A program made the position numbers and the translations under genes. Of a DNA stretch of 64,000 bases, positions 17,562-63,946 are shown in pieces. Origin of the DNA: Paenibacillus aceti. GTDB taxonomy: Bacteria > Bacillota > Bacilli > Paenibacillales > Paenibacillaceae. The number at the start of each line of letters is the position of its first letter. Positions within the stretch are counted from its first letter, which is position 1. The notes below the pieces were generated by a model. That model ran no database searches and was not told the origin of the DNA. It was given only the letters and a program-made list of their open reading frames with translations. Where the stretch lies: assembly GCF_003614185.1 (NCBI RefSeq), contig NZ_KZ987724.1, positions 5,252,668-5,316,667 on the forward strand, read 5' to 3'.

Positions 17562-17896
17562 TCTGGTGAAACAAGGCATCGTTATTTTGAGCCCAAAGGG
17601 TCACCTGGGTCTCTACCGAAATGAGGTATCGTTATTTGAGCTAAACGGACACCCTAGAACTCTAGTGAAACGAGGCATCGTCATTTGAGCCCAAAGGGGC
17701 ATCGTGAAACTCTAACGAAACGTGGTATCGCTATTTAGCCCAAAAGGGGCCTCTGAAAAATCTAACGAAACAGGGTATCGTTATTTAACCCAGATAGGCC
17801 CTTAAAGCCTGTTTTTGCTCCAAATAACGATACGTAGTTTCGTTAGATTTTTTTGTCGCTATTTTTGTGGAAATAACGATTTGTAGTTTCGTTAGA
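17562..17896. repeat. Dispersed 50-bp-pitch repeat element, copy 1 (five direct, two inverted units)
   Basis: Units with the core TCTAACGAAAC-NNG-GTATCGTTATTT start at 17562, 17612, 17661, 17711 and 17761, a pitch of 49-50 bases. The same core follows in inverted orientation at 17822-17847 and 17871-17896. Each core is an imperfect hairpin (TAACGAAAC/GTATCGTTA). A second small inverted repeat, GCCC-AAAA-GGGGC, recurs between cores. The first three units are more diverged than the inner ones. It lies between the amidohydrolase operon and the DUF2268 gene and has no coding sense. Related copies lie at 19614, 31318 and, as a variant, 63761. Confidence 0.9.
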
Positions 17897-19613: not shown

Positions 19614-19853
19614 TCTAACGAAACGTGGTATCGCTATTCAGGCCAAAAGGGGCACCTGAAAATTCTAACGAAACAGGGTATCGTTATTTAGCGAAAATAG
19701 TGGACCAAAGCCTGTTTTTAGCCCAAATAGCGATACGTAGTTTCGTTAGAATTTTTTCACCCTGTTTTCTGCCCAAATAACGATATCCAGTTTCGTTAGA
19801 TTTGAACCGCGCGCCCTTTTCTAGCCCAAATCGCAAAATGGAGCTTCGTTAGA
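19614..19853. repeat. Dispersed 50-bp-pitch repeat element, copy 2 (two direct, three inverted units)
   Basis: Direct cores begin at 19614 and 19664. Inverted cores end at 19750, 19800 and 19853. The pitch is 50, 50 and 53 bases. The core matches copy 1 almost base for base (TCTAACGAAACGTGGTATCG and TCTAACGAAACAGGGTATCG occur in both). The last inverted core has decayed (TCGCAAAATGGAGCTTCGTT). The element lies between the DUF2268 region and the 3' end of the minus-strand GH16 gene. Confidence 0.9.
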
Positions 19854-31317: not shown

Positions 31318-31504
31318 TCTAACGAAACAGGGTATCGTTATTCAAGCCCAAAAGGGCAGCTAAAAATTGTAACGAAACGTGGTATCGCTATTTTGCTAAA
31401 ATAGGGGCTTAAGGCGAGAATTTACCCCAAATAGCGATACACCGTTTCGTTAGATGTGAAAACCTTCTTATTTCGTGGCAATAGCGATATGTAGTTTCGT
31501 TAGC
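31318..31504. repeat. Dispersed 50-bp-pitch repeat element, copy 3 (two direct, two inverted units)
   Basis: Direct cores begin at 31318 and 31368. Inverted cores end at 31454 and 31504. Both pitches are exactly 50 bases. The core sequences TCTAACGAAACAGGGTATCG and AACGAAACGTGGTATCGCTA match copies 1 and 2. The downstream edge touches the region just before kptA; the inverted core ends 50 bases before its likely start codon, so the promoter of kptA must lie within or very near the element. Confidence 0.9.
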
Positions 31505-63760: not shown

Positions 63761-63946
63761 TCTAACGGAACTCCAAGCCCTTATTTGCGGGAAAAAAGGG
63801 TGATTAATTTTCTAACGGAAATGTGAGGCGTTATTTGCTTCAATCGAGCTGAAAAAGGGCGAGAAACACAAAATAAGGTACTCTATTTCCGTTAGATATT
63901 GCCAGGCCGTGATTTTGGCGAAATAGCGGCATGTATTTCCGTTAGG
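63761..63946. repeat. Variant of the 50-bp-pitch repeat element (two direct, two inverted units)
   Basis: Direct cores TCTAACGGAA start at 63761 and 63811 and run to TTATTTGC. Inverted cores end with TTTCCGTTAG at 63896 (TTAGA) and 63946 (TTAGG). Both pitches are exactly 50 bases. The layout, pitch and ends match the other three elements, but the core reads TAACGGAA with GCGTTATTTGC where they have TAACGAAAC with TATCGTTATTT. It is thus a second sequence class of the same architecture. Confidence 0.85.

Follow-up and report, generated by a model that had tools for sequence, protein, structure and literature searches.

The Paenibacillus aceti genome carries a dispersed family of intergenic DNA elements in which four palindromic cores, two direct and two inverted, are set in a fixed frame. 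Distances between these sites are nearly constant, while the site sequences differ among families of elements. We propose that the elements are DNA docking sites for a protein family with a DUF559-like domain and a winged helix, REP/RAYT-like in logic, and put the probability of this reading at somewhat under three in five. The geometry, together with the genes for probable DNA-binding proteins that adjoin arrays of the palindromes, suggests a system not described before that organises DNA or copies itself.

Element architecture and placement in P. aceti

The window, i.e., the whole 64-kb stretch of DNA analyzed, holds a seven-unit element of the first family (fam1) and its sister elements (Table 1). 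The first-pass annotation had placed all seven units at 49–50 bp intervals, five direct and then two inverted. The orientations stood, and the spacings are 50, 49, 50, 50, 61 and 49 bp in order, i.e., the step from direct to inverted units is 61 bp and not 49–50 bp. This copy is a canonical ++-- block with three extra direct units ahead, two of them weak. Further elements of the same build had been announced at 19614, 31318 and 63761; all three are present, the last as a weaker TAACGGAA subtype. In total, the window gave 23 core-pattern matches (at most three mismatches, both strands counted), compared with a mean of 0.05 and a maximum of 2 in 100 dinucleotide shuffles. Of the two nested inverted repeats described for each unit, the core TAACGA...TCGTTA is real, and GCCC-AAAA-GGGGC is limited to some copies. 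Conservation between the cores concerns an AT/GC phase, not the latter sequence. An Rfam scan of the window matched rRNA and tRNA only and nothing at the elements.

Table 1. Positions of fam1 elements and units in the 64-kb window.
Feature	Position	Strand
Seven-unit fam1 element, +++++--	17562..17896	
Unit 1, core degenerate	17562..17587	+
Unit 2	17612..17637	+
Unit 3, core degenerate	17661..17686	+
Unit 4, first in canonical ++-- block	17711..17736	+
Unit 5, second in ++-- block	17761..17786	+
Unit 6, third in ++-- block	17822..17847	-
Unit 7, fourth in ++-- block	17871..17896	-
fam1 element ++---; units 19614, 19664, 19725, 19775, weak 19828	19614..19853	
fam1 element ++--; units 31318, 31368, 31429, 31479	31318..31504	
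Degenerate TAACGGAA-subtype element ++--; units 63761, 63811, 63871, 63921	63761..63946	

The basic element is 188 bp long and has its four cores at 50/61/50 bp. A genome-wide search (at most three mismatches, both strands) bore out a dispersed family with 433 + 423 = 856 core matches, in which one site may count twice as the core is near-palindromic; a reversed control gave 2 + 3 = 5. For closer analysis we read 80 stretches of 20 kb spread along the chromosome plus the window, about a third of the genome. Here, a weight matrix found 206 cores, compared with one in shuffled sequence. They formed 74 groups, 35 of them exactly ++-- and 26 single units. The pitch was fixed: 83 of 87 direct steps measured exactly 50 bp and 42 of 45 centre steps 60–61 bp. 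In an alignment of 31 elements the edges were sharp at 188 bp, with next to no conservation outside. Mean identity between dispersed copies was 70% (best pair 87%, cores 83%, spacers 55%), and this low mean suggests that the copies are old.

The elements had been described as lying only between transcription units. This holds for 51 of 54 multi-unit groups, which overlap no ORF in gene calls by our own ORF heuristic, and fails for the other three. By setting, 33 groups were tandem, 15 convergent and 6 divergent, i.e., 0.22, 0.40 and 0.10 elements per kb of the respective intergenic sequence. Between 2.1 and 3.2 Mb of the chromosome (contig C1), fam1 density is about half that of the rest or less. 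A Noc-like depletion around the terminus, suspected from this sparse zone, was ruled out: by GC skew, the replication origin lies near 4.24 Mb and the terminus near 1.34 Mb, and the zone coincides with neither. All four fam1 units have CC in the core centre on one strand, and this polarity suggested single-strand recognition. We rejected the idea, as polarity followed neither the transcription nor the replication strand (9 C/9 G on one skew-defined arm, 10/8 on the other) and is absent from the second family. Two single units at 4284891 and 4359233 have near-identical flanks and perhaps belong to a long duplicated region. A search for phage and plasmid carriage found no match; seven viral contigs contain the core pattern.

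Geometry, helical phase and conservation

Two physical forms had been suggested for the repeats, a long rod of paired RNA hairpins and DNA sites at a fixed helical phase. The RNA rod was not borne out. Arm complementarity was 58.3% within an element and 59.4% between elements (permutation p 0.99, n = 31), and variable core positions showed no pair covariation. Of the three outcomes named beforehand as refuting (no copies in relatives, no conserved pitch, no covariation), this last alone was seen, copies and pitch both being kept across the order. Predicted RNA folding energies were low on both strands, with mean z of −6.8 and −5.2 in P. aceti (n = 36) and −6.4/−6.4 in elements of other species (n = 26), as is expected from DNA palindromes alone. 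A terminator role also found no support: in 60 gene-end readings a strict search located no terminator inside an element and six between gene and element. A looser scan near the window elements gave 4 and 2 sites compared with 2.9 and 1.6 expected; one site falls inside the 19614 element.

The helical phase, by contrast with the rod, was supported. Spacer AT/GC tracts keep a phase of ~10 bp while the bases themselves are not kept, with AT-rich tracts at about 24, 34, 44, 54, 74, 84 and 94 and GC in between. Among 18 genomes, agreement in AT/GC class was 0.616 compared with 0.502 for shuffled positions, and positions that agreed in class shared the base at 0.59 and 0.55 only. Eighteen elements of other species gave an AT/GC spectrum with its peak at 10.2 bp; that of P. 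aceti had two equal peaks, at 10.0 and 11.9. As the null used for the spectrum removes all positional conservation, it is the period that is informative, not the count of 0/500.

Copies were sought in relatives with a pattern consisting of a 9-mer and the pitch only, and were present in the genus, in the family and in three more families of the order. Any match was found in 145 of 395 family genomes, many of these with one or two matches, which is the control level; 250 had none. Counts reached 134 + 133 in P. aceti (G000), 169 + 164 in Paenibacillus sp. GM2 (G003), 74 + 84 in G186 and 50 + 51 in G319. The positive genomes of the three further families, among 119 genomes, were G039, G046, G425 and G442. 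Core subtypes differ among relatives (TAACGAAAC...TATCGYTA; TAACGGAAC...; TAACGAAGC...) and the spacers become unrecognisable.

The pitch is retained across the order. Eleven of 13 other-species loci had cores at 0, 50, 124 and 174, each within 1; of the other two, one had three of the four positions and G001 was unrecognised by that motif. That the pitch is conserved more strictly than the sequence, as had been stated for the window, was confirmed with the gap left free (35–65 allowed; 581 places in 15 genomes). In the 150 places listed, from 7 genomes, 148 pitches were 49–52 bp (109 at 50, 35 at 51, 3 at 49, 1 at 52) and two were other. A scan of the centre that allowed total lengths of 70–100 gave 477 places in 36 genomes. 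Among the 75 listed, from 12 genomes, 69 centres measured 82–85 (57 at 83, 9 at 82, 2 at 84, 1 at 85), four 93 and two 72. In G425, four of five centres are 93, i.e., exactly +10 bp or one helical turn, and the fifth is 84. Both 72 centres lie in G074 and apparently belong to another palindrome. Several G425 contigs also have numerous units at 50-bp pitch that differ in form, AATAACGGAACC..GTCCGC, and may represent a further core family.

The same geometry recurs with other cores. In the flanks of fam1 we found a second repeat, fam2 (CCTGCA-N4-TGCAGG), with 26 four-unit elements spaced mostly at 51/61/51 or 51/61/50; none lies in the window. The two families shared nine intergenic regions compared with 2.9 expected by random placement (1 in 2000 simulations), a count confined to the fam2 groups inside called intergenic regions, outside which 12 of 31 fall. 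No other pair of families was associated; each shared at most one region, no more than expected. A sequence-free geometry scan gave 31 candidates beyond the fam1 and fam2 labels and none in shuffled sequence; control geometries gave 7 and 14 outside these families. By eye, the 31 comprised 11 fam3, 16 fam4, three degenerate fam1 and one with none. Core scans confirmed both new families. The fam3 core is TAACGGACA-N4-TGTCCGTTA; among its 12 groups with at least three units, 9 have 50/60/50. The fam4 core is AATAGTTGYA-N4-TRCAACTATT, at 50–51/61–62/50–51. At L087:11178-11533, steps of 50 and 61 bp take turns along a fam3 array (period 111, 3.2 near-identical copies); the frame can thus grow while staying in phase.

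The AT/GC phase is common to fam1, fam2 and fam4 (r 0.63–0.75; 0.66–0.75 for the centre), and positions agreeing in class share the base at 0.40–0.65. It fits fam3 less well (r 0.26–0.56; fam3–fam4 p 0.07). Since TAACGGA occurs both in fam3 and in the fam1 G subtype, fam3 is not fully unrelated to fam1, and the core families may have diverged from one another instead of having separate origins. Among genomes, the families are distributed independently. fam2 counts were 156 in G016, 77 in P. aceti and 66 in G029; fam3 counts were 148 in P. aceti, 59 in G008, 28 in G031 and 21 in G003, with 0–5, the control level, in others. G003 has no fam2 match despite 92–100% identity to P. aceti in matched window-region segments.

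We compared P. aceti with G008, to which it is 79–92% identical in aligned stretches. Four intact orthologous elements differed at 30 of 416 core and 70 of 332 spacer positions, with one gap. Two more pairs, one shortened and one partly alignable, were kept apart from this sum; they differed at 7/78 and 14/102 core and 12/44 and 16/79 spacer positions. AT/GC-conserving substitutions made up 21 of the 70 spacer changes, not a clear excess. Flanks of orthologous sites were often unalignable, and other sites were empty, shortened or occupied by another core subtype. At one orthologous intergenic place, P. aceti has a TAACGAAA-type element (5201458) and G008 a TAACGGAA-type element (987808). Unit number varies as well: G003 has six direct units at the locus of the seven-unit element, four tandem ++-- copies at the place orthologous to 31318 and three weak matches in the part corresponding to 63761.

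The suggestion of a mobile element found support as far as spreading goes; copy number is patchy. The 188-bp ends are inverted, and none of 36 + 26 elements had a target duplication there. Where a genome has near-identical copies, these form part of longer repeats whose ends are not those of the element. The G457 carrier has inverted ends TACCTTGACC with CTAG on both sides, that of G101 has inverted ends GGAGTCAAYTTCATCAT (read by eye), and enclosing repeats were also found in G014 and G442. In G001 the element lies near what we take to be IS200/605-like ends. As these carriers have varied ends, the module behaves as cargo of several of them. One locus (L047) with ++ and -- units 3.7 kb apart was considered as an autonomous transposon and rejected. 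It rather looks like an insertion in unit 2 of a fam1 element (L047:906-4776, ACC on both sides), which from its proteins we assume to be an IS3-type element with an IS66-type element inside. At this locus, a fam1 element closely follows short repeats ending GGATTGAAA (L047:125-541 and about 800-900) and a repetitive ORF, which appear CRISPR-like by eye.

A candidate reader beside arrays of its own core

A fam3 array of eight units (L087:11178-11583) and a 218-residue ORF overlap at the 3′ end of the latter. This protein was made the query owing to its array; L087 is therefore no test, and its linkage is not independent evidence. An iterated ORF profile search, run on the loci other than the 30 small ones L001-L030, gave five matches at four loci, L087, L155 (G014), L176 (G063) and L164 (G005). 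The L164 copy is broken and accounts for two of the five; all five adjoin an element. Evenly read, 1.86 Mb of P. aceti contained one copy of the gene only.

A protein-only search of named plasmid records hit one record, Paenibacillus cellulosilyticus NZ_CP054613.1, which encodes two paralogues about 30% identical. Each (L228, L229) has arrays of its own core, at 51-bp pitch, on both sides. In all, a palindrome adjoins the gene at six of six loci. L155, L164 and L176 had been fetched for their element and are biased; L228 and L229 alone are unbiased among the six, and the linkage was found at both. Upstream of the first paralogue (L228), 14 units GTAGGTGCA-N4-TGCACCTAC at 51 bp end about 640 bp before the gene. 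Downstream there are 11, the first about 20 bp past the stop, with 0.01 matches expected by chance. The second paralogue (L229) is likewise flanked by 51-bp arrays, here of another unit, an imperfect palindrome of TAGGAGCGAAAAATCGCCTCTAAC type; one array ends about 240 bp before the gene and the other starts at the stop codon. In its downstream array, a strict palindrome scan links two units only. Just past this second palindrome array lies a perfect 17-copy array of the octamer CCCCTAAA (L229:6434-6571), telomere-like in appearance.

The pattern of the first downstream array occurs at at least 37 places in NZ_CP054613.1, arrays included, and at 7 in another record of the same strain; one match in this second record consists of some six copies in a 51-bp array. 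A CRISPR reading of the arrays was not borne out, as their spacers repeat with the units. Matches between spacers were 86–94% in three arrays; the fourth had 59% at period 51 and 88% at period 153.

Domain assignment was based on similarity searches. The C-terminal winged helix matched TrmB at E 1e-4, just below the cut-off, along with several weaker winged-helix rows. The N-terminal part of one paralogue resembles a protein annotated as DUF559 (33% identity, 45% of the query covered, E 2e-4). It has a conserved D...E-I-x-[GD]...H motif, which in our view resembles that of Vsr/PD-(D/E)XK nucleases. Pfam, NCBIfam and PADLOC gave no model at cut-off or with a convincing score, the Pfam search had no DUF559 (PF04480) row, and rows from PHROGs and the PDB were weak. 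The gene beside the arrays matched no Y1 (HUH) transposase family, and no viral relatives of the protein were found. For fam1, fam2 and fam4, no paralogue was seen in the third or so of the P. aceti genome that was read.

The docking model predicts binding, wrapping, nuclease activity and mobility, with the protein spreading or maintaining the elements. Four palindromes of ~22–26 bp would lie on one helix face, at 50–51/60–61/50–51 bp or about 5, 6 and 5 turns, and spacer AT/GC tracts alternating every ~10 bp would let the DNA bend easily round protein. The reader would be an unnamed family with a DUF559-like N-terminal domain, presumably of Vsr/PD-(D/E)XK-type nuclease fold, and a C-terminal winged helix, with one paralogue per core family. 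One dimer might occupy each palindrome, four dimers forming one wrapped complex. The gene would stay beside arrays of its own core, and the dispersed 2+2 elements would be non-autonomous derivatives. Either the nuclease-like domain may spread the elements, as proposed for RAYT and REPINs, or the complex may have a host role such as the handling of supercoils at gene ends, which the phased GC of gyrase sites (PMC6379681) would suggest. With a candidate protein that has its own sites alongside, binding, wrapping and mobility become testable together.

Competing readings and known systems

The elements could instead be host chromosome-architecture sites, i.e., bendable docking for gyrase or a nucleoid protein at transcription-unit ends, with the adjacent gene incidental. 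Their density, highest in convergent and lowest in divergent regions, agrees with this, as do the cores conserved between orthologues. The excerpted text of PMC6379681 describes a 130-bp E. coli gyrase motif whose GC variation is phased at ~10.75 bp, and gyrase cleavage sites enriched downstream of highly transcribed operons. Here, the period is about 10.0–10.2, the cores are highly specific and unlike between families, there is no origin–terminus pattern, and 250 of 395 family genomes lack a match, unlike sites of a universal enzyme. We consider this explanation, which also leaves the gene linkage unexplained, unlikely. More doubtful still is that the elements are plain MITE-like passengers, relics of a conventional transposon whose four sites were transposase sites as in IR/DR elements, e.g., Sleeping Beauty. 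Sharp 188-bp ends and patchy copy number suit such relics, as do recent copies in repeats with their own ends (G457, G101, G014, G442) and the putative IS200/605-like ends in G001. The missing target duplication speaks against them, as do carriers with unlike ends at unequal distances from the module and the same geometry with different cores. Moreover, the sole long copy examined looks like an IS3-type element inserted in a unit and not like an autonomous transposon.

A structured RNA or bidirectional terminator in the transcript appears very improbable. Low folding energies in both P. aceti and other species and the enrichment at 3′ ends would fit it; yet these energies are low on both strands, the arms do not covary, strict terminators inside elements and Rfam matches at them were not found, and both the +10-bp centre in G425 and the AT/GC phase follow the helical period. 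Returning to docking sites for the DUF559-like family, a point against them is that recent copies in G457 and G101 are carried by MITEs whose ends are different, and their spread could therefore be independent of this protein. We favor a REP/RAYT-like origin with later retention.

In its full form, our proposal is a two-part system, which we hold to be just on the probable side. DUF559-winged-helix proteins would read the core and measure the 50/61/50-bp frame, one paralogue per core, with own arrays and dispersed four-site elements. This would be a Gram-positive REP/RAYT counterpart with a nuclease-like fold, and its conserved trait would be geometry rather than sequence. Among titles and abstract openings, in coverage that leaves most subscription journals outside, we recognised no description of the elements. 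Dispersed intergenic palindromes are a known kind; the novelty lies in a class that geometry and helical phase define rather than sequence, with a candidate protein family of its own. Distances and helical phase that stay fixed while sequence changes would be a rare direct readout, in DNA, of the shape of a protein assembly.

Several known systems resemble parts of this. BIME-2 and strong gyrase sites are likewise intergenic palindromes near gene ends with phased ~10-bp GC; the elements here differ in specific cores, strict pitch, patchy presence and a period of 10.0–10.2 rather than 10.75 bp. bcr, STAR and BOX/RUP are also small interspersed intergenic repeats of Firmicutes, whose brief descriptions give no geometry common to unlike sequences. 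MITEs have inverted ends in common with the elements, which lack target duplication at their own ends. DUF559/Vsr-like endonucleases share the N-terminal similarity of one paralogue to a DUF559-annotated protein, not the winged-helix fusion or the tie to palindrome arrays.

Close, too, are REP/REPIN sequences with RAYT in Pseudomonas and enterobacteria: high-copy, dispersed extragenic palindromes in sequence families, with an adjoining gene and tandem clusters. REP palindromes carry tags at their foot, GGAG being one. Others, GTAG and CGTC, are named in the title of PMC3733652. Excerpts of PMC3116915 describe hundreds of extragenic palindromes in several families per genome, a REPIN cluster beside each RAYT, REPINs also as tandem clusters and non-autonomous units, and RAYT as their proposed spreader. 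However, a REPIN unit is an inverted doublet, whereas the elements here have 2+2 palindromes at 50/61/50, and RAYT is a Y1 (HUH) transposase, whereas the present protein is DUF559-like with a winged helix and no Y1 match. A helical AT/GC phase and distances conserved across families of the order further set the elements apart from REP/REPIN. If the proposal is true, bacteria would have a second way, unrelated to REP/RAYT, in which a population of palindromes persists in the genome.
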